From contig NC_044289.2 in NCBI RefSeq assembly GCF_004027225.2, positions 6,623,761 through 6,687,760 on the forward strand: 64,000 bases of DNA, written 5' to 3'. This DNA comes from Strigops habroptila (taxonomy: Eukaryota; Chordata; Aves; Psittaciformes; Psittacidae). A program made the position numbers and the translations under genes. Below, in pieces: positions 5,980 through 44,700 of this stretch (position 1 is the stretch's first letter; each line of letters starts with the position of its first letter). The notes below the pieces were generated by a model. It was not told where the DNA came from. It saw only the letters and a program-made list of their open reading frames with translations, and made no database searches.

Positions 5980-6860
5980 GTACGCGATGCTGCAGCACCA
6001 GCAGCCAGCCCGCTCCTCAGCACCACTCCACTGACACGGCACCCAGGATGAAGTGTTTCCGCGAGAGAAACATGGGAAGTACTTCAAATATTTTGCAAGT
6101 GGAGAAACCAATTGAGCTCAGCACCGTGGTCTCCAGCCAAGTGGGAGCAGAAGGTTAAGGGCCTGCAATTAAGACCGAGACATCATCATCGAGGGCTCGA
6201 GTGTGACAAAATGGCAGGCTGCTGTGACAGGAGGCCTTGCTGCCTACCCGCCGCGCTTTCACACGGAGGAGATGGGCTCGTTGCTGAGCACCGGGCGTGG
6301 TCCTTGCACGGAGAGGCCGCAGAAGGTTCCTCCCTGTGCCTCCTGCGGAATTAACTGGTGCGGAACCAGCTCCCCGATAAGGGGGATGCTGCCCACGACC
6401 GGGGTTTCCCGTTGCGGCGGACGGGCCGGCTGCCCGCTGGGTGCGCGGGGCCGCCATGCCGAGGTGCACAGCAGGGAGGGGACCCTCGGCACACAGCCCC
6501 ATCTCCGCCCGAGGGAAACAGCGGGGCTCGCTCGCTCCAACGGGCCGCCGCGGCTGCCCGGGCGCCAGCCCGCACCCTGCCCGCCGCCGTTGGAGTGCAG
6601 CCGCGAGCGGGGGGCTGGAGGGCGGCGGCCGGGAGCTGGATTGGGGTGGGGAGAGATGGAAGGGGTGAGGGCCGGCCGGGAGGCTCCGGGGCTGTAGGTT
6701 GCAGTGAGGCGGCGGGAGGCGCAGGAGGTGGCAGGCGTGCGGTGGTGGACAGGGTGCGGGAGGGCAGCGGGCGAGCAGGCAGCGAGGCGTTCAAGGGCTG
6801 CAGCGTGAGGCAGGCCCAGGGCACAGTCTGAAAGGCTGTGAAGCTTCGTTCGGCAGTATA
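5980..6860 (+). promoter_or_regulatory. CTCFL: CpG-island promoter of CTCFL
   Basis: This is the only long GC- and CpG-rich block in an otherwise AT-rich window, densest from about 6240 to 6830. It lies directly upstream of the first coding exon, and I see no TATA box at a clear position. That is the usual architecture of a CpG-island promoter with dispersed start sites. The transcription start cannot be placed from sequence. Several open frames on both strands cover the island, including one of 344 codons on the minus strand at 6351-7385. They are expected in GC-rich DNA where stop codons are rare, and I do not call them genes. In mammals CTCFL is controlled by promoter methylation; whether that holds here is unknown. 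Confidence 0.75.
6456..6668 (+). other. Possible upstream ORF in the CTCFL leader
   Basis: An ATG in a near-ideal Kozak context (GCCGCCATGC) opens a 70-codon frame inside the CpG island and stops at 6666-6668, ahead of the coding start at 7001. Its predicted peptide is rich in Gly, Arg, Ala and Pro and has no recognisable domain, so it is unlikely to be a functional protein. If transcription starts upstream of it, it would be an upstream ORF that could reduce translation of CTCFL. A good splice donor (GGGGTGAGG, GT at 6665-6666) sits at its very end, so the leader may instead be spliced and the frame cut. I find no convincing downstream acceptor that would join it in frame to exon 1. Confidence 0.3.
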
Positions 6861-7000
6861 TCTGGCCTTACGGCTGCTGGAGCCTTTCACCAAAATAGGG
6901 GGTGTAGAGAAAAACAGGGGCTGAGAGGAGAGCGTGATGGGGAAAGGAAAACCCAAGTGAAGGAGAGGAGCAGTGCCAGTGACCACAGTGGGGACTAGAC

Positions 7001-7354
7001 ATGCAGACGGGGGCGAGTGTTCCCCCAGAGTGGTCCCTGTTTCCTGAAGAGGGTGAAAAGCACTTGCAGACCTTACAGACAGTGTGTCCATGCACAGAGG
7101 AGGACTCGGAGGGAATTTGCCAGATAAGCGCCCACCCGCAGAAGGGCATGGCCATGGCAGCACTGGCGGGGGCGGTTGTGCTGCAGCCGGTGCTGCACAA
7201 CGTGCCGGCAGGCATGGCTCTGAGCGTGCGGGACGGTGTCTGTGTGTTTTATGACTTAGGGCTGACACAGAGTAATGTTTTGCAAGAAGAAGGGCAAGCA
7301 AAGAGTTCAGAAAGCAAGCCAACAGAGAAACCACCAGACACACTACTGATTGAG
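7001..7354 (+). CDS. CTCFL: CTCFL coding exon 1, N-terminal region (residues 1-118)
   Basis: This exon encodes the start of the unstructured N-terminal region. The segment [13 protein letters not shown], about residues 16-28, aligns with the SEKYILTLQTV segment of mammalian CTCFL; that is the main evidence that it is coding. The ATG at 7001 is chosen because an in-frame stop lies at 6980-6982 and no pyrimidine-rich acceptor precedes it. The protein would then lack about 60 N-terminal residues compared with human. I end the exon at the strong donor GAG|GTACAAG (GT at 7355), phase 0, which joins correctly to exon 2. The alternative donor at 7389 would be phase 1 and create an immediate stop in exon 2. 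The 344-codon minus-strand frame over this exon is a shadow. Confidence 0.72.
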
Positions 7355-10300
7355 GTACAAGTTCTGGATGTGGTGAAGATGGCAATAGGTTAGGCGTTAG
7401 CTGGCAGTATCACTGATTCGGTTCTGACTTCAGTACTATTTTTCCTAGGCATTCAGATTTGTTGGACTGAAGTATCTAATCCTTTGTACAGCTTTTTAGA
7501 ATGTCATCCTGTGTTTGAAAATGCAGACTAAAAATTTGGCCTTTTTAGATGACTAATCAGTTGAAATTCAGACAAGTTTTTAATTCAGTTCACCAGTTTG
7601 GTGCCATTTTGTTTGACAGGCTAGATCTCTTAAGTAGTATTAGACAATTTCCCTTCTCCTGCAATGGTACAATACCACAGTCATTGTTAAAGCTGGATGT
7701 GTAATATGATCTCATTTGAAATGCATTTCATTAAAAGGACATGCAAACATTGGTATTTGTCCTGTGCTCGCTATTGGTTTTATAATAAAATAATTAATTT
7801 TTTCTTTTAAAACTCATGTGCTACCCTACATAATTTCTGAGGTATGGTCATATTTCAGTTTAATGCAAAAAGTATCACAACCTTGTTAATTGCCGTATGA
7901 CAAAGAAAGCATTGCAATTAGGCTGTAGAAGCCCTATGTTTGGTAAAAATTTGAGAACGTACTTTCTTGTTTTCTTTTGAAAGGTAAATGTACTGAAATT
8001 AAGTTGAACTTTTTTAAAAATGAGGACACAAGTTTCTTGTTCTCAGTGCTGTAATCTTAAAATGATGCTCTGAAATTTTATATAAAATTTTGAAGAGCTA
8101 GGGCTTAGTTATAGTGATTGTTCACTGTATGACATAATAGCTGTATGTTAAATACAGTTTGTTGCAGTTTTGTCTATCACATTTAAAGCTGAAAATCAGA
8201 ATTAATGAGTAGCTTGTATTTTATTGATTGCTCGGTTGTTTTGCCACTACCTTTGATTAGTGAAGTTGTAAAACCTTTTCTTTTTAAAATAGATTGACAG
8301 AGATAATGATGTAATTGCATTTGAAAGTAAGGTCCAGCAACTGAGCCCATCTGAAGTGGGGGGAGGAAAAGAACTTCTTTTCATTCTTGGGGAAACTAAG
8401 AGCTGGAGCTACAAAGCCAGTGATAATTTGTCAGACTCAAATGATGAAGGTAAAGAGCAGGAACATGCAACTCCATCAGAACAAATAGCTGTAAGAAATC
8501 CTGAGAATCCAAAATCTCAGATTTGTGCTCCACATCAGAAAAAAGGTAAAAAAGTTACCAATCCTTGTAGTTCACTTTTAGATAACACGTTAAGTTTGGT
8601 TTTGAAGCGAGGTTGAGATATTAAATATTCACAGTGTTAATTGTTAAGTTTAGATTAGGTTTCATCTTAACATTCTATGGAAATTTGGAAGAAGGCATAA
8701 TACCTTTCAGCCTTAAGTGATAAAAGATCTTGTTCAGGCTGATGTCATCTGCGCTGCGTTTAAGCGAGAGATTTTGGATGGCATTTAGAATTTAATGGTC
8801 TTCTGAACAGTATGTGGTATTTGAATCCTTCGGGGAGATTTCAAAGTTAATATTGTATAAATACCTTTGAATAAACCTAGTAACTTACTTAGTCTTTCTT
8901 AGTTCCCTCATTCAGCTTCAAAATGTGCTTGTTCGAGGGTTTATGGATGAGCTTAGAGTGGTTTCAAGTTGCTGGTTGAGGGTGGGCAAATATCAATGCG
9001 TGTCAGTAAAGTATCTCCCAGAACTTGAGTAAAAGTAACAGAAAAGTAATGGCTGATTTAAGATTTTAGGAACATAACAGTATGTTGCATAAGTTAAGGA
9101 CTGACTCAGAAGGGAATCATAAGCATCTGTTTCCCTAGAAACTGTGTGTGTGTACTGTAAAAGTTGGATGACATCAGAAATGTTGAAGAGTCTGTAAACG
9201 TGTGTCGTAGTATCTGGATATTAAGGTATCTTGGCTGAGGTTGTTTAAAGTACAGATATTGTACAAATTGTTAATGTCCCTTGTTTTAGTTGCTGCATTT
9301 ATAGGAAGCACATTTGAGCAGCTTTAACAGAGCTAACAATGTTGTTCTGTGTGGGCATGAATCCACAATGAATAAATAACCATAAAGTGTTTTTGTTTGC
9401 TGTTATTGAAGTGAAGTGTTAGCTGCATATCTCTGTGTGGTGTAAAGCATTGTATAAAATACATTTTGGTCTCAGCATGAAAATCATTACGAAGAGCGCA
9501 CTTGGAAGCTGAGACAACTGTTCTGGAAAGGCTCTTCAAATGTGACATATTTGCCATTTTGCAGTTTCATATCTTCTTCAAAACTGAAAATGTTGCACAT
9601 TCACTTTTAACTTATTAAACTCAAAAGAAATTAATTACTGCTATGCCATGAACTTGAACATGTTCTGTAATCCAGAAAGCATAACTTTATTCTTGGACTC
9701 AAGGAATTGATCTTTTTTTCTCAAATTCAACTAATAATTTTAAAAAGGCTTTTTACATCATGATCTTTTTTACATATAATTTATGGATTCAGGACTACCA
9801 GAAAGCTGAGACTAGCTTAACTTGTCATTTCCAAATCTTTGAACAAGCTTGCTTAGTACTAACATACAATTGTCATCAGGAGTGTGTTGCACAGGGTGTA
9901 ATTACCTTGATGAACCACATCTTATTGGTGCTATAAGGAGAGGAAGTTTCATCCTGTCTTGGAGGTGAGAGCTAGATTAGGAGTTAAGGTTACCTGGGAT
10001 TAGGTTCTAAACTGTATTGGTAATGCATGGCACTACTTTTTGGGCAAATCCCTTAAGTCTTGGATACAGTAATTTCTGTCTTGACAGTGTAATTTTTTTA
10101 TAATGTGTTTTTATGTAGAAGTATGAAGTAGTTTTACCAAACTAGAGGGACTATATTGAAATTGGTACTATTTTTTTAAGAAGTAAAGTCATCATTTTGT
10201 GGCTTATATGATCTAAATGTGTCTCTTCCCACAGGAGAAAAAGAAGTTTTCAGCTGTGATTTGTGCACATTCACCTCACTCAGAATATCAAGTCTTCATC

Positions 10301-13300
10301 GTCATGTGAAAACCCATTCTGATGAGAAATCTCATGTGTGTCACCTCTGCCTTAAGGCTTTTCGTACAGCTACTCTCCTGCATAACCATCTGAATGTACA
10401 TACAGGTATCTAACATGTGAAAAGACTTCGTTTTATATATTATCTACAAAATTGAATTAACATGCAAATGACTTTGTCTTAGGGCTGTATTCTGTGATCA
10501 TTTTGTGCTCTGATTTTCTTTGGAGTTCCATACTGAAAAGACATGGTCTATAGTTAGTAACTCTCTGTGCATGTATTCATTTATTTTGTTAAATACTATC
10601 CTAATAATTTTTGTTAACTGAATGTTGGCTTCAGTTGTGTCTGATTCCCGTGTGCGCAATAAAATTTTCTGTGATGTTTTCCCTTTGCTGTATAACCATA
10701 TGAAGCAAATGGATAAATTGTGTTTATAATAAACTTCTGGTGTACGTATATTGTGTATAAAATTCAGAATCTCAGAAAAAATTCTGGTAAAAAATTATGC
10801 ATGATAATTTAAGGCAGATCATACTGATGTGTTGATAAATAAGATTCTAAGAAATGGTATATTCTTACAGGGACCAGACCCTATAAATGCAGTGACTGTG
10901 ATATGGCATTTGTGACCAGGGGTGAGCTTTCACGACACAGGCGTTACAAGCATACCTTAGAAAAACCTTTCAAGTGTTCATTGTGTAAATATTCTAGTGT
11001 AGAAGTAAGTACAGCCTTTCTGGATCTTTTGGAAGGGTTTGTAAGCTTTCACATACTAAGATTTTAATACACTGTCAAGTTCTAACATTTTTGCATAGAT
11101 TTTAACGTTGAGAAGTTTCTGTGCATATATTGTACTGTCACGTATCGCCTTTTGTTACTGTCAGATTTCTCTATGAGATCAGCTCAATACAGTACAGAGG
11201 TACTTGCAGATGTCGAGTAACAGTATTGGTACTTGGCCTGGGATGCAGATGTACATATGCATTCTGAATTAGGAAGAATGGCCAAACTCGCACAATATTA
11301 TTAGCTTTTTAAAACCAGTTACATTTTAAGGGTGTTTTCTTCTTTGTTATACTAAAATTGCTGCTAGACAATGTATTTGTATTAATTTGATCATGCAGAA
11401 GCATCCTACAGAAGTCCTCCTGTATGCGCCATTCCATGTACTGTAGGACAAAACTGGCTGATGTCTAAAATGAAGTTCATGTGTTATGTTTATATGCTTG
11501 CTGATACTTGGTTTTTTTACAGGACTGAAATTTTTTTAATCTAGCAATAAAAAAGTTAGCGTCTGCCTAAGGATTCGCTGGGAAAAATAGGCTTTCAGTC
11601 ATGTACCTATGATTGAATCACAATCACAGTCACCTATGATTGAATCACTGTCACAGTTTAGTGGATATTCAGTATCTAAAGTTTTTATGTGCTGTGTCCA
11701 GATCTAGAGCTGCAAGCAAACCTGAACTTTATTCTACACCACTTATCTTATTAATTAGATCTTGGATAGCTTGCATCTTTTAAAAACCTTGACAGTTTAT
11801 ATTAAAGTATGAAAGTATCCCATTCTTTTCCTTGTTTTAGTTGTGTTCAGTAGTCGTTGTTGCAGAACTCTCACTGATATTGCTGTAAGCTTTACCTGAA
11901 TGAGGAGAGCTGAAGGAGCCCCCCAGTAATACCATGTATATGATTTTACTTCGGCATAGCAAAGATTGGCAATCATGTTTAATTTTATTTAAGTGAATAG
12001 TGTTGTAGATTTGAATGGATCTAGCAGAGAGTTCATTAAGTGTGTTTATAAATGTAGGAATTGGAACATTAGGTAACTCCTAATTTTAGCTTGGATACCT
12101 ACAGTATTTATATAGAATGTGTCAGAAAAACGGTATAAAAAAGTAGAATGAATTTGCAATTAAAGTGCTTCATTGGGACTTGGTGGTGAATAAAGACTTT
12201 GGTTAATGAGTTTGGTCTTTCATTTATTTTCCTGAGTATTTTCAAAGAATTTCATGTTTGATGTATCCAAGTAGCCTGAAAGTAGTGGATATCCACTTTA
12301 AAAATACTAGCTTTTATGTTCTTATGAAATTTCTCCTTTTGTTTATGTTGACACTAAATATGGAAGTAAGATCATCTGGGGAAAGAGCACACAAGTGTTA
12401 TCTAAAACCACAACAGACCGATTGTACGGGAAAAAAGGGATGGGTGGATGAGCGCTAATCCTGGGATTGATGGAATATTTTAAATTGCAATAGATGTGTA
12501 AAACTGCTTGTATTTTAATTGTTTGTGTGTCTAGTGTAAGTATTACTGCAGAAATGTTCTTGCTTTTATACTAGGCAAGCAAAATGAAACGACATGTTCG
12601 CTCACATACAGGAGAACGTCCTTATGCCTGTGAACTTTGCAGTTATGCTAGCAAAGATGCATACAAACTGAAAAGGCACATGATAACTCATTCAGGTAGG
12701 ACTCTGATGTAATGATCAAGTAGACTGAGTCAATTGCCAGTCTTGATGTAATTTTTGATGATATCATCAAATCTTTTTTTTTTTTATTATATTTATGAGA
12801 CTTTTAGGGAAGAAAGGCTAGAAAATTTCCCGCTTTCTCTTCTACCATTATCATTGGGTGCTGTTGAATCACTTTCATTATGATGTTGTTACAGCTGTAA
12901 ACTTTCTCCTTGCACATTTAAGGATAATTCTGCAATTTTGTACATTAAATATTCAAGACAGAATAGAAGATAATTAAAATAATTCCTGGTTAATAGTTTA
13001 GAATTTTAGTGGCTTTATGCTTCATCAGCTTGACTCACAGATTCTGGAAGCCAAGTTTTTGCATTCTAATCAGCTATGTAAACTTACATAACCTTGTTTA
13101 GCCTTTTGTGTGTTGTCCATTAACAGTAACATTTTCATTGGTCTGGAGACTGTTGCTGTTAGAACATGGATGTTGAGACCTGTGGCAATTTTGCATTTGT
13201 ATCAAATGAGTAGAGTTTCTAAGCATATGTTATTATAATACGTATTTTACAGGTGAAAAACCCTACGAATGTTATGTTTGCCAGGCCAAATTCACTCAAA

Positions 13301-16300
13301 GTGGTACCATGAAAATCCATATGTTACAGAAGCATGGAGAAAATGTGCCAAAATACAAGTGTCCACATTGTAGTGCCTTTATTGCACGAAAAAGTGACCT
13401 GGGTGAGTTTAAAGTAAAAAATTGAACTGTAAAGATAATTAGAGGTGAAATCTCTTTTCACTACTTACAATGATAGCAAATACATTACATATGACTTGAT
13501 ATCATTACAGAATATTTCTATAGGAAATATATTCCTTGTTTTACAGGTAAGTTCCTCCTGCAAGGAGATGTGGTGACATCTTGTGGTTGATGTGCTAATT
13601 TCTTTAATTTGGGTTTTTTGCTTGATGCTTGGTGGCATTGTGACCTGGTTTTCAGTAAGAAGGTACCTCACAAAAATACATGCCCAGATTGTAGTGAAGT
13701 TTTTCCTCAAAACCACAGAAAACAGTCAGATTTGTATTAAGCCATTTCAGTTCTCCCATTCTGTTTCTTTCCCAGCTCTAGTTAAAATGAATATATGCAT
13801 CTAGCTGTATGAGACACTAAAACAGATTGAATGTTTTGGTATATATGGGGTTTTTGCATATGCCAAATCAGCTTTTACCTTTTAATCTAAAATTGTACTA
13901 TATGTTTAGTTGCTGAGTGCATTGTCCTTGTAATTTAAAGAAATACATGTAATAGCATTAGTTAGTGAAGTGCAAGTTAAATTTTGACTTCATTGGTTCA
14001 TCAGACAATGGTTTTACTATGCCTCTAGTATTCAAAACTCTTAGAATTCTAAATCCTGTTGCATCAATATCAAAGATTATTTTGGGGCTGTATAACACTT
14101 ATGAAACATTAATGGTGGTACAATAAGTTCAAATGTCTCTTAGCTAGTTGGGATCTTTTCCCAGAGTGCAAAGAACAAACCACTGCATAAGTTCATCTTA
14201 ATTCTCTATGCAGAGGTTCAAACTGAAAGTATAAATTAAAATCATAATTGAGAACGTAAATTGAAATTTTTCTTCATACAAACCACAGTTCTTGAAATAC
14301 AAGCAATTTGCTGGGGATTTATATATGAAATTTTTGAATTACTCTTCTTTAGAACAATACTTGCTTCAAGTACTAGTAAAGTTGTCCCTATCCATGTATT
14401 TCATATGCAAATTCATCTTTTCTAGGAAGAAAAAGGTTTTGTACAGATGAGAATTTTATTAATAAATCAGTGATTTAGAATTATAGCATATTTACTGTAT
14501 TCGAGGCAATATAGCTGACCAATGTCAACAAAACCTGTATAAAATTTGAAGTTTACAGAAATAGATGAAACAGCTATATTAAAAAAATATTTAGACATAC
14601 AAAGATGTCTTTAGCATCTATTTGTATTTTCAAATAAAGATCCCATTGAAGTCTGTTAAGTATTTGAAGGTAGAAGTGTTATTTATATATATACAATCTC
14701 TTTGTTCATGTATTTTTGCACCTTCCCTTTTAATGTAAATGCATTTAATTGTAAATACTACTTTGGGTACTGGAATTTTTGGAAGGATTTGATTTGTTAA
14801 ATGATTTCCATGGAAATCAGTAAGAGTTAGGCTTATAACTGCTGAATCTCTCCATAAAATTACAACATCTTGCTGCAACTCAGTTAAACTTACTTGAAAA
14901 ATTGCTTATTTGGCAATTTTACTCCTATTGCAGAGAACACAAAGTTCTTTTTTGTGTATCTTCTACAATGTATGCATTACTCAGGGCTATGCACAGGGCA
15001 AGTCTTCTTCAAAATGGTGGAAATTAAAAATTTACCATTAAAATCACTTGTTTTGAATAACTGTTCAGGTGTCCACTTGCGAAATCTGCATTCCTACATG
15101 GCGGTAGCAATTAAATGCAGTTACTGTGAAGCTGTATTTCATGAGCGCTATGCTCTTATTCAGCACAAGAAGACTCATAGAAATGAAAAAAGATTCAAAT
15201 GTGATCAGTGCAGCTACGCATGTAAACAGGTATTCACTGTAAAAATATTGCTTACTCAGTTGAGAGTTTAGCAAGGTGGGGTTTTGGGGTTGTATTTAAT
15301 TTGAGATAAAAACTTCTGTGACTGCAGTCTAAAACGATGTAGTTATATTTATTTGCAAGATAAATAGTTCACAAATAAACAGTAAAATTGAAATGCTGTA
15401 AAGTCTGAGGCTATCTTCTTGATAAATCTTTTGCACATGAACTGCTTAGAAGTATAAAGTAACATAAATCACTTTCAGTGACATTGCGATAGGAACAAAC
15501 TGTAATATTTGAGCCTTAAATGTGATTTTCAGTAGTGTCACAAAATAAATTTGGTCTGAACTGTAAATTGTAGTTTAAAGAATACATTTAAGATAGCACT
15601 GCTTGGGCGTTGGTATGTTGGAATGTACCGTTGCCCATTCTGATGATGTTCTCTGCTAACTTTAATAAGGTTGAGAGGAAAACCGCTCACCTTCTCCAAG
15701 TCAGTGGGCAGTATCCCAGTGTGTTCTTCCGCATCTGCTTACAGTGGAGGATAATTAAGGAGTGTGCAACATCCTTGCACTCCTGTGTGTGCCTGTGTGG
15801 TTTTTTGAACTCTCAGAGCTGGATAGTTATGTTACAGGTATTTTCTTTGTTTCAGGAACAACATTTAATTGTACATAAACAAACCCATACTACGGAGAAG
15901 CCCTTCGCTTGCTTGTGCTGCAGCAAAACTTTTCAACAAAAGGAGCTTCTTACCCTTCACTCTAGGAAGCACCATGATTCTAATATTAAGCCTACAGTTT
16001 ATGAATGCCCTAAATGTGGTAAGGGCTGTTCACTCTGGGTAAGATACTTCCTTTTAAGGAATCTCAGTGGAGTTATCTTTAGCTAAGTATTGCAGATCAT
16101 ATTGTCAGAAAGTACTGAGAGTAAAAACTAGTGTACTGGCAGGAATGTTAATGCCTTAATGCTCAGCCAGCAAAACTTGTTTGGTTTTTTTCCCAAACCT
16201 TACATTGGGGGATTAATAAAGAACTTTATATTCCCCTTTAGGTAGAAAATATCTGCTACTTCATATTTTTAGGGTTGTTACTGGTTTGTAGAATTCAATA

Positions 16301-19300
16301 TTGAATGTTTAATACTCTACTCTTCTTAAAATGAATCAAAAGGCAGTGTGGAGGTACGAATTTTAAAAGAAATCAAAGAACTTGGAAGGATAATTGAAGT
16401 GAAATAGCGCTAGGACCAGTTCAGCAAGGAAAGTAAGAAATTATTATTCCCTTCAAAACCATATGCAGTTAGAACGTACCTCTGGTTTGAGGTAAACTGT
16501 GCACACTGCTGAAGTAAAAATAACCTTTTTTCCACATGCAGATTTTACATGTAAAACTTCATTGCTTATCCAGGAACAAGAAAAGTAGATATTTGATTTT
16601 ATACCCACCAAATAGAAGTGTTCCTTTAAACAGAATTTTAATGTGTATTTTGGAAGATCTTCAGGAGCTTTATGGAGGTTGTTAACTAAGTCAGCCTTTC
16701 ACTTAGCATTTCAGAATTTTTCTGTCAGAACCATATTTGTTTTTTCTGTGTGTGTTAAATTGCTTACATACATTAATATTTGATTCATATATTTATGCTT
16801 CATTATGCTAACAGGATAATATGCATAAGCATGCTGAAAATTGTGGATTGGTGAGGGCAAAACCTGCTACACCCAGAAAAAGAAGCAAGGGCAAAAATAA
16901 ACCCCATGAGAACCCAAAGCGTGTTAAGCAACAAGGTAATCAGCGAATAAGTTAGAATTTAATCATGTAAATTAGAATCAAGAATAAAAGGCTAAGACAG
17001 TGAATCTCCCTGCTGTTTAATTACTGTTTCACAATGAAGCTAATTTAAGTGCTAATAATGGAAGAATACTTCATTGTGTGTCAGAAATTCTCGCCATCTG
17101 ATTTGGGTCATTGCTCAGGTACCCATTCTGGGACTGTTGTTCCCCTGCTCCTGCAAATGTCTTCTTGTGCTCCCTGCGTAGCAATGCTTGCAAATGCAGT
17201 TTTCTTTCCTGTTTTACAAATTCCCTTTGCCTTTATAAATGAGGATGAAACACATCATTTACTGACTCAAGCCATAGTGAGTTTTCTTAATTTATAATCT
17301 ACTACTTTAATACAGACCAGATGGAAAACTTTCAAATCTTAGAACTCAGGTTAATCAAAAAAGATCTAGCACATTGTAACGAAGAAATTGTTCATCTTCT
17401 TTCTCTTCTACTTAGACCTGATAGTGATCAAATAATAAAAATACTACTGATTTAAATAGCTAGAGTCATTCTTCTGTCATACTGCAGAGGTGATCAGGCC
17501 AGTTTATAGAGCTCTTAGTTCAGAATGTCTGTGCAATCAGAAACTCATTTGTAATTACTTAGTGGTACTCATTGTGGGTAGGTCTTAAGCACTGAGCATT
17601 TATTCTGTAAACTTCAACATAAACCAAAGGATGGTCCATCATTTATCTCTTTCCTTCTCTCTTTTTTCTCTGCTTCCTCATCTTTTGTTGTTAGGTTAAG
17701 ATTCCCAGAAAGTGACTAAAGTTCAGCTTTTGGCAGGTTGTGATGGTAGATTACTTGGTCAGTTGATTGTCTCCACAGCAGTAAGTGGTGTGCCTTTGGT
17801 AATGCTAGTGCATTCCTGATAAAATAATTTGTTTTGTCTTATTTGCAACTCTAAAAACATAATAAGTTTTTGGGTTTTTAAATTCTCTTAAATAAACCTT
17901 AGCCTGTCACCACATATGTAGTGATATTCTATCAGTTTCACCGTAAAATTTAAATTTAACCCAGAGGAGGTGTCTACTCATAATTTCATTTATGTACATT
18001 TCTGTTGAATTAGACAAAGCACAATATACAATATTCAGGTCAGGGCATGGGCAAGAACCCTGTATCCTCATGCATCCTGCCTTCCCTTTGTGTCTTTGAT
18101 CTAATGCTGAATCTCTGTGCTGTTGCAGGGTGAGAGTTGGTTGTGTGTTTCTGAGGTCACCTTCAGGGCCACCAAGGCCAAAAAAATAGCTCTGCCTGAT
18201 AAGACTATCCTGTCATTTTTTGCCCTTCTGCTTCCCAGATGCTGTTTGAAATCCACAGTAGTCTCCTTGATAGGATTCTTCAGGTGATTTTTATGGAATA
18301 AAAGACAGGAATGGAGATACATCTAAGTCCTAGGTGTCCTGAAACCTTACATTTTGGCATATCATATTGTATCTACACTGATTTGTGGCTAATGACAGAT
18401 AAAATCTGACATAGTGAGAAGAAGAAACATTGGAGCTTTTCTGAATCTAATGAATATATATCAGCAGCTGAGTTTGCATTAGCATTGACACTTCTGTTTT
18501 CACTGGTAAGGCTGTAATGGTATGGTTAGAAGTGCTACAGCTGCAGTGTTTATGTTTTTGCAATAATTAGATTTTGCTGTTTATTAATATTTTGCTATGT
18601 GCAAACAATTTCTTTTTGGTATCTTGCAGATACCTTCATCTGGAAGCTTGATTTTGTGGAGCTAAGAAAATGTATCTTTAGATGTGATTCATGCAAATAC
18701 TGAGTCCATTAATTGACTCACACAAATATTAGAAATTTCTGTGCTTGTTCCAGAAGGTTTTTTCCCCAGAGTTGACATTTGCAAGTATATAGTTTACTTC
18801 TTGTACAGCTTGCAGGGACCTATGGGATCCTGTATGCGGCTTTACAAAAGATTACTTGTCTGATTGATGCTGTCAATGCTTTACTGTTACTAAAAATTAA
18901 AATACAAAATGCATGTATATGAGAATTAAATTTCCAGTTAAATAATGCTTAGTTTTCCCCTGATAAGAATGCTATGGGTACAACTCACTAACATGGCTTG
19001 TAATGTAACAGTCAACCTAAGATACATTTGTTCTCCAAATAAACCGTAGGATAAAAGATACGCTATTATTATATATTGTTAAATTTACTGAAATATTTAC
19101 TTGTCTTTCTGGTTAATCACCACAATGATTTTTTTGCTTGGATTTTCTTTTCAAACTTGACCTGGAATCATTCCAAGATTTCCCCGTTGGGAAAAGTCAA
19201 TATTGTGCCAGTAAGATCGTTCCTGTTTTAGATGGGATAGAAACAGCAACTCTGAGAACAGAAAATCGAAGTGATTTCTGAAATAGAGTCTCAACATGAT

Positions 19301-22300: not shown

Positions 22301-25300
22301 ATTCTCTAACAGTGCTCTTAGGTAACTCATTTATTTGGAGAAGCAGCTTTCTATGTAAGATGAAGCATGCATTCTGAGTTTCCCCTGCAAGCAGAAATTG
22401 TCTATGCTTTAAATAGTTAACGTCTGAGGAAAAGCAATGTCTGCACAGGCACACATACCGAGTAGAAAAAAGCAGAGAAAGAGTAATGACATGACTTTGG
22501 ATACATTTTTACTAATTGGGCTCTGTAATAGAACTGAGACCTGGAAGCACAGTACCCTCAATGATGCCAGTAAGTGGCATATGGTGATGCGAAAGTGAGA
22601 TTTGATGTATCGATTAGACTGAGTTGTCTTCTGAAACTTTGAAGAATTTTTCCACACAAATCCTAGAATCTTCCAAGGACATGAAGAAAAGCAGCTATTG
22701 TCAGCAGCAGGGCTGCAACGTGTGCTTGCATGATAGTGTTTAATTAAGCCTGGTGCCGAGATGACCGATAGCGGTAATTAGAGGAGCTTCCTGTAGATGG
22801 CAGTACACGTTCACATCCGTGCAAGAGGGCAGAAAAACAAATGATTGGTGTCATAGAATCCCAGACTGGTTTGGGCTGGAAGGGACCTTAAAGCTCATCC
22901 AGTTCCAACCCCTGCCACGGGCAGGGACACCTTCCACTAGAGCAGGTTGCTCCAAGCCCCTGTGTCCAACCTGGCCTTGAACACTGCCAGGGATGGGGCA
23001 GCCACAGCTTCTCTGGGCACCCTGTGCCAGCGCCTCAGCCACCCTCACAAGGAAGAACTTTCTAGATGTTGTCCAATTGGGTGTAATGTCTGATCTAAAT
23101 CTCCCCTCTTTCAGTTTAAAGCCATCACCCCGGTCCTATCACTACCTGTCCTTGTAAAAATGTGAAAGGTGCTTTGATTTTTTTTTTGTCTTAGTTTTGA
23201 CTTGTTACGCTATCCTGCTGATGATTTTGTGTATGGCAAGGCTAAATAAAAAGAGTTCTTTGTAGCTCTTTTTCCTGAGAGGACTAATAAGTCCTAGTGT
23301 TCACTACAAAGTGTAGTCATCACTGTCAGGGAAAGGATGGGGTGTGCATACCTTCTGCTGGATGCAACTGGCATTTGCTCCCAGTGAAGCTGACACAGCC
23401 TCAGCTGCATGGCCGGTACCTCCGCTTGCATTGACTGTGATGCCTCTTCAACCTGCACATGCCTTCACTGTGTTTGTCTGCTGCTCTGCCTTACTTGGCT
23501 GCATTGGCTCAATGGAAGGTCAGGTGAGTGCCACCACTGCAAGGGAGGTGTACTGAGTGTGCACTGGGGGCATGTTAATATATTTTCTGTTGCTGATAAA
23601 CCATTTTAACATCTCATGTAAAATTATTGTTTAATGATAAAGTAAGCAGTTTATCTAAGAAATCTTTAGTTACAGAGATTTTAGGGCTTTTAACAAGCAA
23701 CAGGTTAGACAAATTTTAAAAGTCCTTTAAGGTGGGGTGAAGTGTGGCACATAGGGCCATGGGGAGTGATCTGGTCCATAAGAGGGTGAGCTTGTCTTTT
23801 CTGTCTTCTAAAAGTTAAGCTTTGACACAACAGTGTGGAAATGGTACGCAGTCAGCATCACCACAAAGACTTGTTCTCTGCATGCAGAGATGCGTGCAGA
23901 CAAAGCACCAAAGCTTACGCTGCAAACAAAGCGTCCTATGCATGCTGCATATACAGCATCACCACGAAGGCTTGTTCTCTGCATGCTGTGATGTGAGTTT
24001 TTGCCATGCAATGATCTTTACTCATCATCTAAGCATTATTCTGGTAGAGTAGATGAGGAAGCTGGATTTCCATCTGATTTCCATTCTTGTGAATGTTCCA
24101 AGAAATTTTCTTGAACTGTCATCTTTAAGTTCCTGCCATCCTCTCCTTTGTATCCCAACTAATCTTTTTCCTGTCTTTCAAATCTTTTTGCTGATTACCA
24201 AGTTGGCATTAGGGAGACATGTCTGCTGTCTGTCAGTACATCTACTGAAGATCTTTGCCATGATTACTTTTTGTAAGTTAAAATCAATTTGTTATTCAAC
24301 AGTCTACAAGTAATACTGCAGAGATAACTAACACAAAGTTAACAGATGGGAATTTAATTTCTGTTCTTGTGAGGAAGCCTAGCTGTCTCTCAAACCATAG
24401 CTGTGTTGTTTCCATTGTACAGATGACAAAAATGATGCACAGACCAAAATTAATCTCTGATTTAATCCTTTTGCCTTCAGGAGCAGTGAAGCCCGCTGAT
24501 GATACAGTATGCTGCTGCTTATTACTAGGTTAATCTCACTGAACTAGAAATAGAAACCTCGGGTGTTGCAGCATGTAATGATTAAGTTTACATTAGCAGA
24601 AGGTGGTGAGCAAATGGTCAAGGACCAAATCACATTAAGGCAATGCTGTTAATCACTGCCAGAGACATTAAACTCAGAATTAAAACTGAAATAACATTTA
24701 TAACTTCTTAAAGGTCAGCACTTAAGATGATATGAAGGCACTATGGCAGCATGACTAACAGCCATGGGCAGGAGTGGTGGTATAGCATCTCATAAGGAGG
24801 ACACAGAGGGAGTTTCATCTGGTGGTAATTGGAAGGTTCATAAAGGAGACACAGACTCCATAGTCTTAAGTAGAAAGAGTAAAATGAATAATGTTTTCCT
24901 TCGTCACAAGGTCTTTCCCACTGGATGTAAGCTCACTTCAAGCGGTCACTAGTGGATGACTGAATTACAGCTGACAACGTTATATATGGCTGTAATTTCC
25001 ATTCACGCAGTTTTTAATATCTGTTTTTTGTTTTAAGACACAGAATGTGCATTTGAAAGCAATTTGCATTAATAGAGTATATCTTCAGACAAACATCATT
25101 CCCTGTTGTTGTGCTTTTAAACAGCCCAGCTATTGTTTGAAGTTAGTCACTGAAACAGCTGGACTCTGTCTGGCATTATGGGTGTATGATCGTTACAGAA
25201 TGGTAAAGAATTTTCTGACAGCTTTGGTTCAATATGTTTTGACTTTGAATTGGCAGTTGACAATGAAGAATTTAGTTTCTTTCTGCTTTGGTAATTGACT

Positions 25301-28300
25301 GTTTGAGTTACTGCTGTAAATGATTTTGTTTATTTTTAACTTTGGTGGTTTGTTGGGTTTTTTTTTCCCCAGATTCAGTTGGTTTTATCCCTGCCCTGTC
25401 CACATAACACAACACATAACATAACATAACATAACATAACATAACATTTGCAGCTAATGGGAGGAATGCAAAGGAGTGACATCGCTGCTTGCTTTGATAA
25501 GAAAGAGCCTTGCTTTTATTACCGACTAATCAAATGGGAGGTAGCAGCTAATGGTGATCATAACGAAGCCTTGGAACTGCCATCCTTTTTATGGAAGAAC
25601 TGCATGCTGAGAGAAATAAGCTATCCTCTCCTTAAGGCAATGGTGATTCTTTGTTGTTCTATTACAGTAACTCATCAGCTGTTTCACTGTGAAGTGAAAT
25701 TTACAAAACTTCACAGTAGTTATTTTCCCATCCTATTTTAAATGTCCCACTCTTTGAACTGAATTATTTATCCCTTCATCACTTATCATAACTAACTGTG
25801 AATTGAAATCACTTGGTTTTAAATGGGCTGTATCCTCCAGTCCATGCTCTCCGACAAAACGTTTGCAGGACTTTTATTTGAATAACAATTGTGTGATGAT
25901 AAATGTCATAATAGTGTTAACGTAAGACTATGCTCCATCTTTGCATAGGTGTAAGTTTATAGTAAATCCATTTAGTTCAGTGAACTAATTCCAGTTAGAT
26001 GGGAGCTGAGACAGTGGTCTCTTCCTTTTGGGACTAACTTTGAAGATTTGATTCATAACTGACAATTCCCATTCAGTGGTCTTCAGACCAAGATACTCAG
26101 CACCTTTAAGATTAGGCAATGCAGCTATGCTTTGCATATAACAAGATTTTTTTTCTCTGCTTTTCACAAAATTCCTAAGAGAAATGCAGAAGTGTGCGAG
26201 GATGCCTGCTGGCTTCATCTTGACAGGAGAACAGTATAGGAGTGAACTGCTGTTCATTCTGGGGCTTGCCACTCCATCTGGCAGATGCAGACCAGCTACA
26301 GGAGGTCGTATGTATGAGCAGGCAGGCTGCCCTAATAGTGGAGTTTCCTCTTTCTCAGAAGCAGATGATTGAATAGAAACAATACACTGCTTTCCCCATT
26401 TGATGATGAAGACTGACAGTTTTGTAGAAGATGAGTCAAAGGTTACTGATGAGAAGATCCATCCAGATAATTGCTGTAATTGCACCCCTGAGGATGCAGC
26501 TCCAATCACAAAGCATTAGGCAGTGATTCTGTTTGTAAATATATACTTGGCAGTGAACTTCATCCTATGCCTTAAATCAAGGAAGTTCCCTCATGAGATA
26601 TAAATGGTGAAAGTTCTCTTGACTTCTTAATTCAATCATGTTTTCTTCTGTCAGCAGGTAAATAGGAAATAGTCCCATTCTGAAACAGAGAAGTAGTTGT
26701 GATTTAAACATAAAATATCATTTAAATTAAATGGTGTTAAATCGTTTGCTGAATACACTAGCTGTTAGTTCACAGCAAATACCAATAAGGACCATGAATG
26801 AATGAACATACATAATTCATAATATTTAATTTGAAAGTGCATTTTTTTTACAATGACTGGTTCATTTTTCTTGAGTTTGTCCAGTGACTTCTTTACAATT
26901 TAATACAAAAAGCTTTTCTGTTGAAGAGTGAACAGTTACAGACAAGACAGAAGCAGATCTCTGCCACCCAAATTAGCTCTTTATTCTACCTTTCACAAAG
27001 GCACAGAAATCAGCAATGCTAAAGCATTGTAGGATGAGAACTCATAACTGGAATGAGGGGCAATGAAGCACATCAAATTTCTCAGCATATCACTAGTTGC
27101 TGTTAATGCCTCAACTATTATGAGCTAAAACTCGAAAATGAGTCTCAGAACAGCTATGTGGGCAAGTTTAGATATTATGGCTCTAGCTTTCTTAAATTTG
27201 TAAATGAGAGGAAGGTGAAACCATTTGGATTCCTAGAAAACACACAAGGTAATTTTTAAAGGTATTCATATGTCTCAAAATGCATTAAAATATAATGTAA
27301 CTTTCAGAAACACAGTGGTTCAGCCTGTGGCAGGGAGTGGGTGATGCTCTGGTACCCCAGTGGTGTGCTTCAGCCTGTTGTGAAGCAGCCTGAATTTGAG
27401 AAAGTGCTGTTTAATGGTATAGGACAAAGCTGCTTCATGCAACTTCCACTGAAATAATTGGTTAAAGATTAATTTTTAGTTTCAGAATTCCAGGTTGCTC
27501 TGTGGTTATTTATGAACCAGGAAAAGTCCCTCTAGGACTTTGAAAAAATAAGGTTCATGATCAAATCCTACTTTTAGAAACTGAAAATTTTGGGTGGTGT
27601 ATTTTAAGTGGCTCTGGCTTGAGAAATATATCTTGCCTGAACAACAGGCATAACTCTTGCTTAAATAAAGAAGTAACTTACGTAAGTCCTTGTGCTGCTG
27701 ATACATAAACCATTAGCAAAGGAGTGAGGAAGTGGTGAAATTTGTTCTATTCTAGCCCACGCTCCCTGGGACACGCATCTAGCCTGGGAATCAGCACAAA
27801 CTGGGCACATAAGTATATTTGTTTACATTTACCATAATGCTTTGCTGTTAGGAATGTCTTTTCCTTTTGAATATGACTCAGTTTTTTATGACTATGCACT
27901 TAGAAAGTCAATAGTATTGATCATTGACAGTGATCTGTTCCTTGCTGCATATACTTTTTAGATTAACTATCTGTTCCATGCTATATTCATGCCTACAGAA
28001 GATACAAAAATAATGACATCATTTTTATGCTTTTCTGTAGTGTTACAAAACAAAGCCTGTCTTGTGCTTCTTACAGGGTAGGACTAAAATCCGAAAGCTT
28101 TGTGGTTGCGTTTCTGAGTGAAACTAAGGAAATAAGTAACACCATTATCTGCAGGCACTTAGGGTTTAACTTTATGAAGAATAAGAAATCTTAAACAGAG
28201 TTTGTGCTCACTAAGGAGTTGAAATGGAAAGAGCTAACTCAAATCCAAAATTTAGGTTGTGGTTTTTACCTTAGACAACAGTGGTATGTCTGAATGGTTG

Positions 28301-30212: not shown

Positions 30213-30541
30213 TCATAGAATCATAAAATACCAGGTTGGAAGGGACGTCATGGGACCTCAAGGGTAATTTGGTCCAAACTTTCATGGCAAAAAAAGTCTA
30301 GACAAGGTGTCCCAGCACCCTGTCCAGCTGACTCTTGAAAGTGTCTGATGTTGGGGAATCCACCACTTCCCTGGGGAGATTTATTCCAATGGCTGATTGT
30401 TCTCATTGTGAAAAATTTTCCTCTTGTGTCTAACCAGAATCTCCCCAGAAGTGACTTGTACCCATCACCCCACACATTTTCCATGTGATTGCTTGTGAAG
30501 AGGGTGTCTCCATCTTCTTCATAGCCACCCTTTTTACCCCT
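30213..30541 (-). mobile_element. CR1 LINE 3' fragment, reverse orientation, more diverged
   Basis: On the minus strand this is a CR1 tail ending in the CR1 terminal sequence (in reverse, CATAGAATCATAAAATACCA) with the adjoining CCAACCTGG-type region and the internal AGGAAAATTTTTCAC segment. It is more diverged from the common CR1 3' sequence than the copies at 22.9 and 38.4 kb, so it is probably an older insertion or a different subfamily. It is truncated and non-coding. The 98-codon minus-strand open frame at 30248-30544 is simply the degraded tail of the element's reading frame. Confidence 0.88.
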
Positions 30542-32508
30542 CAAATGTGACAGGGGGAAAATGGGGAGGAGAAAAATCAGTGTGCCTGATGCTGGGCATC
30601 CTTATTATTATGCTCTCTCAAGTGAAATGATCACCCAGCACCTGATCTTCTGGCTCAAATATTCCATGCTAGCTTGCCCCTGGTTCTCACATCTTTCCTG
30701 CAGCGCCACTATTACAGCCAGCGTAATATGTACCTGACACTGTGAATATTCAGCCTTTTGCTTGATCATTCCCGTTCTCTCATCTCAAATCCCTTCAGCT
30801 GCCACAAAAGCTTTTACGGGAGTTTCAGTCTCCAAAAATGCCATATGTGTGAGTGTGACCCCCCCATCTGTTAATTAACATTTGCAGGCACAGACCAGTT
30901 CCTAATCATGTGGATAGGCAGTGGCTATACTCAGCCCACTTGTATGAAAGAGTCCTTTTCAAATGTCAAAAGTAGACACAATTCTGTGGATCATTTGTTG
31001 CGACCCCTTTGCAAATGCAGCCCCTCACTGTGGTTTTATGTTGGTCTCCGCAAAGGGTTAACACGGGCTGTGCACAGCCAGTCCCCTCACTGCCTCTGCT
31101 AAAGAAACATTAATTATAGAGAGCCCTGAGGATTCAGAGCTAAAACAACTGAGCAGGATTGAAAACCAAGACAATAAAATAACTGGTTGGATTTGATCTC
31201 TAATAAATTACTATGTTCTGATGATAAAATTCAGCGAGAGTGTGACAGTCAGATGGGGAGGTTGGCAGCAGAAGTTTTAAAAATAAATAGTCTTAAATTG
31301 CAGGAAATTACAGCAAGCAGCTCCTTGGAGTTCTTTTTCTGGGTGCATTGTGTGTCTGAGAAGGCAGGCAGCCCGCTGGCAAGCTTCTGACCTTTTGTGT
31401 GTGAAATAAAATATGCAGGTGCAATAGTGTGAATGCACAACGGGTGACAGTGACTTTCAGCTGTGGGTCTGTGCGCTGAGGGCCCCACAGGGCTGCCAGG
31501 GGTGCTCCAGATTAGCTCCATTCAACTTGGGAAAAGGACAGTGCGAGGCTATGGCTGTAAAGGAATATGTGTTTCTTACATATACTCTCGTATTCAAAAT
31601 CTGTACATCAGCTGATGGAAGGCTTGTTTTAAATTATATTGCTGATAACTGATCTGGTTCTTGTATTGCCCTATTCATATTTGAGTCTGGAGTAACTCTT
31701 CTTTGGGTGGTTGAATTTAGCTCAATTACATTGCTGCAACCATGATCTACTCACAGTTCCTTTCTGAAAGGAAATCCATACCTGCATGGTATGGACAATT
31801 ACTACTTTTCAGTGTATTTGAAGAAAACCAGGGCAAATTTATATCAAGACATTCTAAAACTCCATTTACCATAGTAACTGAGAAGCTTGTAATCTTTTAC
31901 ATTATTTTCATCACAAAAAAGAAGCAACCTGTGAAACTGTGGAAGCATTAATGCCTTTTTTTGTGTGGTTTTGGAGCTGATGAAGTGGAAGACTGACTTT
32001 CTAGAGAAGTTTATGGGAAGAAAAAGCCATGCCCAGCTGTAGGATGGAGCATTTTTTCTCATTAAATCTTTGTCATGGCAAGCAAAATATAGGGATATTT
32101 TTGAGGGAAAAAAAGGGTTAGCTGTTATTCTGATGCTTCCTTGCTCTCCTTACAGTTTCACATGGGATTCTTTCTGCAAAGAGACTAAGTTTTGTGACAT
32201 TTTGCTTTGTAGCATCAGTGTTGTTTGGCCCATCCTGAATTGTCAGCTCTCTCTTTTCTATCTGAAGGATATCATGCTTTTTTTCCCCAAGGCAGGTTTT
32301 GAAGATTAAATTGTACCAAATAATTAAACGAATTTATTGCATAGCTTGTATTAATACACTCTGCACCCTAAAGAAACATTAGTTACTTGATTTTAATTGA
32401 TGTATGTCTAAAAAGAAAATACATTCTCAGATAAGCTGTTGTTAAAGACGTAAGCATTTTAGGGCCATGTGCTAGTTACTTAAATGAATTAATTTCATTA
32501 TTAATTTC

Positions 32509-38381: not shown

Positions 38382-38782
38382 ATGGCTGAGAAAGTTGGGG
38401 CTGTTCAGCCTGGAGAAGAGAAGCTGTGTGGAGACCTCATAGCAGCCTTCCAGTATCTGAAGGGGGCTACAAGGATGCTGGGGAGGGACTCTTCATTAGG
38501 GACTGTAGTGATAGGACAAGGGGTAATGGGTTCAAGCTTGAACAGGGGAAGTTTAGATTAGATATAAGGAAGAAGTTCTTTACTGTGAGGGTGGTGAGGC
38601 ACTGGAATGGGTTGCCGAAGGAAGTTGTGAATGCTCCGTCCCTGGCAGTGTTCAAGGCCAGGATGGACAGAGCCTTGGGTGACATGGTTTAGTGTGAGGT
38701 GTCCCTGCCCATGGCAGGGGAGTTGGAACTAGATGATCTTAAGGTCCTTTCCAACCCTAACTATTCTGTGATTCTGTGATGT
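38382..38782 (+). mobile_element. CR1 LINE 3' fragment, forward orientation
   Basis: This is a well-preserved CR1 tail of about 400 bp on the + strand. It begins with GCTGAGAAAGTTGGGGCTG and contains GACCTCATAGCAGCCTTCCA, GGTGGTGAGGCACTGGAATG and TGCCCATGGCAGGGGAGTTG. It ends in the tandem octamer ATTCTGTGATTCTGTGAT that marks avian CR1 3' ends. It includes the last part of the ORF2 frame (88-codon frame at 38426-38692) but no complete reverse transcriptase or endonuclease, so it is dead. Confidence 0.95.
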
Positions 38783-41700: not shown

Positions 41701-44700
41701 TGGGTTTAATTTAAATTAAACTCCTGTTAGATAAATGAAATACATGACAGCTTGGCTATGCACCTGGGTTAAAGGATCTTATCAATTTCTGAAACATGAA
41801 ATAGATGAGGCCTCCCAAACACGCTGCTGCTGGGGTGAGAAGCCCTGCTTTACTTCTGAAACACCTTCCTGGAAAAAAAGACTGTATTTTTTTTAATTAG
41901 TATTTTTCCTAATCAGGTGGTGTCTTACAGAAAAGGATTTCCATCTTGTGGTCAGCTGTGGTACTAAAACATTCCTGGTAGGGTTTTTTGATAGGAAACC
42001 AAAATGCTTTTAATAAGAGTACAAATCTGCTGCAGTTCTTGTGAAGGTAAATGTTGAAGACCTCACAGTCTGCTTGCATCCGTACTTGGGCATGTCTACC
42101 TATTAGGAGGTAAAAATGTCTCATGGTTAGCTCCCTTTAGAAAGTCATCTTTGGGACACGACAGAATTGGAAAAGGAATAATATAAGCTATTCACAAGAG
42201 AATGTTCAATTTTGACAAATTATACAGTGTGTCAGGAGCTATGCACAGGAGTCCAAACTCAGAATTATTTGGAGCCTTAAAGGAAAGGAGGCAATTACTC
42301 CTGAACTTCTGGGAAATATTCTATCCAGAGCCAAATATTGTTGCTCGGATTGTTTTCTATTCCAGGATGACTCTTTGGCTTAGTACGACGTCATCATAAC
42401 TTCATGCAGATATTTGTTCTTCAGGACAGATTTTGAAACTCATGCTCTAATCTCGAAATAGTAAAATGCTGCAGGGTTAAGTGCTGGGGCTCATTGGAAA
42501 ATCCACTCACTTCAGTGGGAAAGATTTTTTAATGTATTAAAAACAAAACAAATTTGGAAAGGTCATTTTAAATATTAAGATCTGTGACTGGAGGGCAGAG
42601 CTGTGTGCGCTGGAGAAGTTTAGAGCTGCTGGCATGCAGGAACTAGTTAGGTTGTTTATCTGGTGCCCCTTAAATGACCGCTATTGTACAAGCCAAGAAA
42701 TACAGGTGAGGCTGTCAAAAAGGAATAATTTGATTATGTTTAATTATTATCTTATTTGTCCATTTGTCCATTTCTGCACCAGAGTTGCGCACTCTGATGC
42801 CACCACTGATTGCACTGAAGATATTCTGACTTCAGTGAGAGCAGGACCAGCCCTGAATATTTATGAGGAGAGTTAAATAAGATCTCAAAATTCTTACAGA
42901 TGCATGTAAGAACTTTATAAGTTCTTTTTATTTTGAGGTCTTGTAACTAAAGGAGATGTTCCGTGTGTTCCTTAGTGGGTGCCAAAAAACTTATTTTCAG
43001 AAGTGTTTGAGTCTCAGGGAAAGTCAATGACTGCTATATTTAATCTGCAGCTTATGCAGCTGCTGCTGAAATCAAACCATGTTCTTTTGTAAGAATAATA
43101 GGAAAAAAACACCAAAAAATCAGCATTTATGTGAAGAATTAGGAACTGTACATATGACTTACATGACACAGTAATGTACAACAAAACTGCCTGAGGTTGT
43201 GCTTTAAATGTTACTGTAAGGAGAGTAGAAAATCAGAAAAACTTGTGAGCTCTTTGCAGTATTTGGTAAATAGGTTCCAGAAAAGCTTGCTTCCAAAGTT
43301 TACACATGGGCCTTGTTCTATTCGTAACTGCAGTAGGTGGGAATTATTGCCGTTGTCTCTATTGAAACAAGATCCAGTTTATTTTTTTTCTTTTTATGTG
43401 GAAGTATAAATCTTGGACCTGAATCACAAGAACACTGAAGGAGGAAAATACTTTGTCTTTTTATTAAAAAAAAAAAACCTCAAACCCCAAAATAATCAGA
43501 CAGCTGGTTAGTTAAAAGCACTAAAAATTACTTGAGGAAAAGCTTCCTTAAATCAAGTATTTTGCTTTTAGATTTTCCTGCAGAGTGCTGTGCTTATACC
43601 ATTTATTTCAAGTGTGAGAACTTTATGTCTGATCAAACCATTAGCAACTCTCTGGGAAGCAAACAGCAAAGCACCGGCACTGCTCGGGGCCAGTGTGAAG
43701 AAATGGAGTTTCTACACTTTGCATTTTGTCACAGGAAGAGAGTGATGAGGAGAGACCAGAGAGGAGAGGGGCAGATACCTTGGCAATGAAGGGAGCAGCA
43801 CAGCCCTCCCAGGGTGGCTGCACAACAGCCGCTGGGGAAGGCAGGCTGCGCTCTCCAGGCCCTGGTGACTGAGCTTCAGCAGACAGTTGGGATGTGAATT
43901 ACACACCCAGCAGGCCAGGCTGGCTACAGTCCCTGGGTCCTTCTCCCATTTTAGACTATTCTGTGAATCGCAATATGTACATGAATGGGCTTTTTTTCTT
44001 TCAAAGTTTTGGGAGCTCATGCATGGTCCCTTGCCCGTGGTAAAGCCAAATTTGAGGGGCTCTGCTGAGCCTGCTGGTGAAGATGCTGGTTGAGGGATGC
44101 ACATCTTTTTTCTTCTATTTACTGGATTGCTTCCCTTCTCTGCTTTGAACTACTAATTACGTCCCTTGAAAAACTTTGCTTAATTTATCTAGTTCTTCGG
44201 ACCTGTAATGTTTCCTGGTGTGCTGTATTTGTGTTGGTGTTCTACTTGTCTGAAATTCATTGACAAATGTCCATTTGTATGTTTGGAGGTGAGGTTTGTG
44301 CACATGCTTGTGTTTCCATTTGAAAACGTTTGCCCTGCCCAAGTAACTGTAATACCTGTGTGAGCTGCCATGTATCCCGCAGTCCTAACAGTGGCTGAGC
44401 ACCATCCTCCCTGCTTTTGCCATTTCCAGCCTTGGAGAGGACTATTTTGTGCAAGTTTTCATTCCCACATCCTTATCTCTTCAACTGTGACCAGAGAAGT
44501 AGGTATGGGTGCTTCGGAGAGAGCTGGCTGACCAAATGGCCTGTTGTTTTTTCCCTTTCACTACCAGTTGCTAAGTTCCTAAGAAATGTCTGAAGGAAGC
44601 TGCCAAGCACAGTTTTGTGGTGTTATTTTCCATATAAATGGCTCTAGGGTCACCAGAGTGTGGCTTCAGAAGACAGAGGTAATTGCTCCCAAGGTCAGGA

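Follow-up and report, generated by a model that had tools for sequence, protein, structure and literature searches.

The question raised by this locus is whether a probable bird genome still carries a working CTCFL (BORIS) gene, and what such a copy would mean for the history of the gene in birds. The window, that is, the whole 64-kb stretch of DNA that was analysed, contains a readable gene on its forward strand. Judged from its sequence, this gene is a CTCFL orthologue that is very likely either still functional or was lost no more than a few million years ago (probability about 0.87).

CTCFL in Birds

The first-pass annotation assumed that only traces of CTCFL were left in chicken. It argued that an intact copy would demonstrate survival of the gene in some birds and would give a date for its loss elsewhere. 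The premise has a source, a 108-bp BORIS trace found in chicken in 2008 (PMC2515639), but it is outdated. Since 2018, CTCFL gene models have been available for birds such as Meleagris, Taeniopygia, Numida, Parus, Pseudopodoces, Sturnus and Ficedula (PMC5871936, section 3.4). These models have up to 10 zinc fingers; a tree places them among other CTCFL, and their synteny is conserved. The same paper reports the loss of CTCFL in chicken, yet also doubts it. A further study mentions in its introduction that bird orthologues have been identified, and counts chicken and frogs among the lineages with loss (PMC7471279).

Survival in birds was already documented by both papers. Since bird CTCFL has been reported, the copy in the window is one more unremarkable case, and it cannot be used to date the loss of the gene elsewhere. 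Among the papers listed by the literature searches, none was a later study dedicated to CTCFL in birds. Bird CTCFL is already known, and current understanding is little changed. What the locus adds is one full finger array, in keeping with the survival of CTCFL in some birds and with a chicken loss that is not common to all birds.

Gene Model

The gene model consists of nine exons within 7001-16935 on the forward strand. The exons, their GT-AG borders at all eight introns and their matching phases were reproduced as originally annotated. In the list below, tblastn refers to searches with human CTCFL. This human CTCFL sequence and that of human CTCF are provisional references.

6200..6999, no strand assigned: CpG island that probably covers the CTCFL promoter and 5' UTR (GC 0.66-0.77 and CpG observed/expected 0.68-0.83 over three 400-base steps)
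7001..7354, + strand: coding exon 1, N-terminal domain (open frame; in-frame stop upstream at 6980)
8293..8545, + strand: coding exon 2, remainder of the N-terminal domain (open frame)
10235..10405, + strand: coding exon 3, zinc fingers 1-2 (open frame; tblastn)
10871..11004, + strand: coding exon 4, finger 3 and the beginning of finger 4 (open frame; tblastn)
12575..12695, + strand: coding exon 5, remainder of finger 4 and finger 5 (open frame; tblastn)
13253..13402, + strand: coding exon 6, finger 6 and the beginning of finger 7 (open frame; tblastn)
15069..15229, + strand: coding exon 7, remainder of finger 7, finger 8 and the beginning of finger 9 (open frame; tblastn)
15856..16038, + strand: coding exon 8, remainder of finger 9, finger 10 and the beginning of finger 11 (open frame; tblastn)
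16815..16935, + strand: coding exon 9, remainder of finger 11 (C2HC) followed by a basic tail, ending in phase 1 without a stop (open frame)

The joined frame has 549 codons plus one base, with no stop and no frameshift. The in-frame stop at 6980 leaves the ATG at 7001 as the earliest start that exon 1 can have. Scored with a provisional weight table, the donors lie between the 86th and 99th percentile among the forward-strand GTs of the window, and the weakest is that of exon 1. Of the eight acceptors, one is preceded by a pyrimidine tract of average quality (54th percentile), namely the acceptor of exon 4. Exon 9 is also adjoined by GT on its 3' side, and its tblastn match to the human CTCFL reference is weak (E 1.3).

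Seven exons (3-9) encode the fingers. CTCF also has seven finger exons, and the borders of BORIS are identical to them (PMC2515639); the exact CTCF border positions compared with the exons of the window are provisional. A separate observation is a 27-base unit that occurs twice in an intron of the gene, at 11605-11657.

CTCFL Rather than CTCF

The best PDB match of the protein is CTCF (7w1m, E 9e-155). Over 312 finger residues, identity is 73.1% to the human CTCFL reference, compared with 68.6% to CTCF. Of the 81 finger sites that discriminate between CTCF and the CTCFL reference, 35 carry the CTCFL residue in the window, 21 that of CTCF and 25 neither. The CTCF fingers average 99.5% identity among vertebrate orthologues (PMC2515639), so CTCF can reasonably represent the ancestral sequence. 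Where the window and the human CTCFL reference both depart from CTCF, they share the same residue at 35 of 60 sites. Independent change would be expected to give about 4.8 shared residues in 60, and the maximum reached in 20,000 draws was 16.

The N-terminus points the same way. Against the N-terminus of the CTCFL reference, none of 1000 shuffles aligned as well, while 882 of 1000 did so against that of the CTCF reference. Exon 1 alone is matched by 7 of 1000 shuffles and exon 2 alone by 58 of 1000, which is weak. One 13-residue stretch of exon 1 is identical to the human CTCFL reference at 9 positions, with a tblastn E-value of 9.2 on its own. The motif of the interaction between CTCF and cohesin, YDF, is absent from CTCFL orthologues according to PMC7471279. 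It is likewise absent from the 549 codons. A YDL in exon 1 was considered as the cohesin motif of CTCF and rejected, as the F is missing and the CTCFL residues aligned with it are unrelated.

Taken together, the shared residues and the CTCFL-like N-terminus support the predicted identity of the gene as CTCFL, not CTCF, as the annotation had proposed. That the gene could instead be a diverged duplicate of CTCF itself is highly improbable. The 21 discriminating sites with the CTCF residue speak for such a duplicate, but the CTCFL residue at 35 of the 81 is far beyond chance agreement, and the N-terminus resembles CTCFL and not CTCF. The 68.6% finger identity to CTCF also stands against it, compared with the 99.5% average among vertebrate CTCF reported in PMC2515639.

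Zinc Fingers and Contact Residues

The gene encodes eleven zinc fingers, ten of the C2H2 type and a last one of the C2HC type, and the zinc ligands are in place at 44 of 44 positions. When the bases of the finger coding sequence (312 codons) were shuffled, none of 2000 shuffles stayed open. Pfam returned eight families, all of them zinc-finger models; two were below the curated cut-off, and none was specific to CTCF. A search for relatives of the finger region found none in viral contigs and ten pattern matches in genome contigs, none of which was confirmed.

The DNA-contact residues divide along the array. In fingers 1-8, all 32 positions carry the CTCF or the CTCFL residue. In fingers 9-11, 7 of 12 match neither CTCF nor the human CTCFL reference. 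CTCF and the human CTCFL reference are also unlike each other at contacts of fingers 9-11, which indicates that change there is tolerated. The finger cores show three substitutions: finger 4 has M for L, finger 9 has L for M, and finger 11 has C for F, which is the serious one.

The 3' End of the Gene

There is no stop codon within the nine exons, so the coding sequence is incomplete at 16935. Two ways of ending it are given here.

16936..16988, + strand: alternative end by unspliced read-through, with a stop at 16953-16955 and AATAAA at 16983 (translation; polyadenylation signal)
17316..17455, + strand: candidate for the terminal exon, in matching phase, with 46 amino acids before a TAA and an AATAAA at 17434 (chance-level support)

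The second, the closest of the attractive choices, is one of 46 in-phase candidates with an acceptor and an open reading frame between 16950 and 30000, and with that many candidates none stands out. It bears no resemblance to the C-terminus of the human CTCFL reference, the alignment being equalled by 701 of 1000 shuffles, or by 293 of 1000 when the tail of exon 9 is added. A search for C-terminal motifs in the three forward frames gave a single match, at 44147, which is irrelevant. The C-terminal domain of CTCFL is poorly conserved, with an average identity of 23.7% among orthologues (PMC2515639).

The first-pass annotation had called the gene apparently intact. This description holds for the open frame, for the eleven fingers, all encoded without a stop or frameshift, and for the complete set of ligands. 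It does not extend to the coding end.

Constraint or Recent Loss

The pattern of substitutions gives indirect signs of constraint on the protein. None of the 63 residues that differ from both references falls on a zinc ligand, an outcome that 100,000 random placements did not yield once. At sites where the two references are the same, 38 residues occur only in the window, and these are more conservative than random single-base changes (p 0.015). If a gene of this length were released, it should break within some 5-10 million years, at assumed rates of 1.5-3 mutations per thousand sites per million years and an assumed share of indels. The missing coding end, the weak exon 1 donor and the 21 of 81 sites with the CTCF residue count against a functional orthologue.

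A CTCFL gene that was inactivated recently could also retain an open frame. In such a gene the promoter, the terminal exon or splicing would have failed, and the C-terminal fingers would be drifting. The absence of a distinct terminal exon among the 46 candidates fits this account, as do the weak exon 1 donor and the confinement of contact changes to fingers 9-11. The F to C change in finger 11, together with those 7 changed contacts, could mean relaxation. Finger identity to human (73.1%) is lower than the average of 80.4% given for BORIS orthologues in PMC2515639, and gene loss has been reported in chicken (PMC7471279, PMC5871936). Weighing against inactivation are the 549 codons without a stop or frameshift, the 44 retained ligands and the CpG island that is present upstream. 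The changes in fingers 9-11 also have a parallel in the human CTCFL reference, which differs from CTCF at contacts of these fingers. A loss older than about 5-10 million years is unlikely at the assumed rates. Recent inactivation is on balance improbable.

Another account assigns different fates to the two parts of the protein. The CTCF/CTCFL recognition residues would be retained in fingers 1-8, whereas the remaining three fingers and the C-terminal domain would have been re-shaped or lost. Such a protein would bind the core motif and no longer read its upstream extension. This is a tentative proposal, and on present evidence an unlikely one. If true, the gene would encode a specialised competitor of CTCF, perhaps at a stage preceding the loss seen in chicken.

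Surroundings of the Gene

The neighbours expected for CTCFL are PCK1 and RBM38, one on either side, and also RAE1. No credible tblastn match to provisional sequences of human PCK1, RBM38 or RAE1 was found in the window, which covers 7 kb upstream and 47 kb downstream of the gene (best E 0.24, for RAE1). This result does not contradict the expected synteny. The synteny of CTCFL is described as conserved in birds (PMC5871936).

In the region 17456-64000, about 46 kb downstream, no gene was recognised by the three tblastn queries and by reading. The GC content there goes from about 0.35 to about 0.45 at the far end. Rfam, run at the gathering threshold, gave 0 families in the 64 kb.

Recognised repeats are sparse, with three CR1-like fragments in 64 kb by reading and one pair by self-comparison. 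The pair lies at 22851-23060 and 38573-38779, in opposite orientation and 79.7% identical. A readable open reading frame at 38390-38692 overlaps the region of the second fragment and resembles the 3' end of the CR1 reverse transcriptase frame. The third CR1-like stretch, at 30215-30600, was seen by eye; it is more diverged and has no match to the other two in the self-comparison. The CR1 tails have a bird-like form, and CR1 elements are also found in turtles and crocodiles. Based on the three fragments, a bird host is plausible. A turtle or crocodile origin, which would make the presence of CTCFL unremarkable on other grounds, is improbable in view of the few recognised repeats and the form of the tails. 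Other repeats are a 40-base direct repeat at 23853-23892 and 23954-23993, with copies 90% identical and about 100 bases apart, and an ACATA repeat of 6.8 copies at 25414-25447.

Proposed Function

Judged from its anatomy, the CTCFL of the window would be a CTCF-like DNA-binding factor. CTCF contacts its core motif mainly through fingers 3-7. The protein should read the CTCF core motif, given that the contacts in fingers 1-8 are those of CTCF or human CTCFL. It would occupy CTCF sites, or compete for them, without anchoring cohesin loops, because the 549 codons contain no YDF. Given the changes in fingers 9-11, the protein probably binds the upstream extension of CTCF sites differently. Contacts that stay constant in fingers 1-8 but not in fingers 9-11 point to a testable difference in how the upstream motif is read.

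Germ cells would be the most plausible place of action. Expression of CTCFL is confined to the testis in human and mouse and to the gonads in wallaby and cattle (PMC2515639), and it is strong in catshark testis (PMC7471279). BORIS is also expressed widely in platypus and bearded dragon, according to PMC2515639, which makes a role in germ cells a guess in the present case.

Comparison with Known Systems

The closest systems are the bird CTCFL models of PMC5871936, which represent the same gene and probably the same kind of host. They have up to 10 fingers, whereas eleven are readable here; this difference is drawn from the description of the models only.

CTCF (PDB 7w1m and others, and the human CTCF reference) shares the eleven-finger array, at 68.6% identity, and its contact residues in fingers 2-5, 7 and 8 are identical to those of the window. 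It differs in the N-terminus, where the score indicates no relationship (882 of 1000 shuffles equal it), and in the YDF that the 549 codons lack.

Compared with the human CTCFL reference, the N-terminus encoded in the window is shorter, 7 contacts in fingers 9-11 are changed, and the core of finger 11 has C in place of F. The human C-terminus is not recognisable in the gene of the window, where the candidate exon was compared. Both proteins are without YDF, the state reported for CTCFL orthologues in PMC7471279. They are also alike in having eleven fingers, an N-terminal domain that can be aligned and a finger identity of 73.1%.
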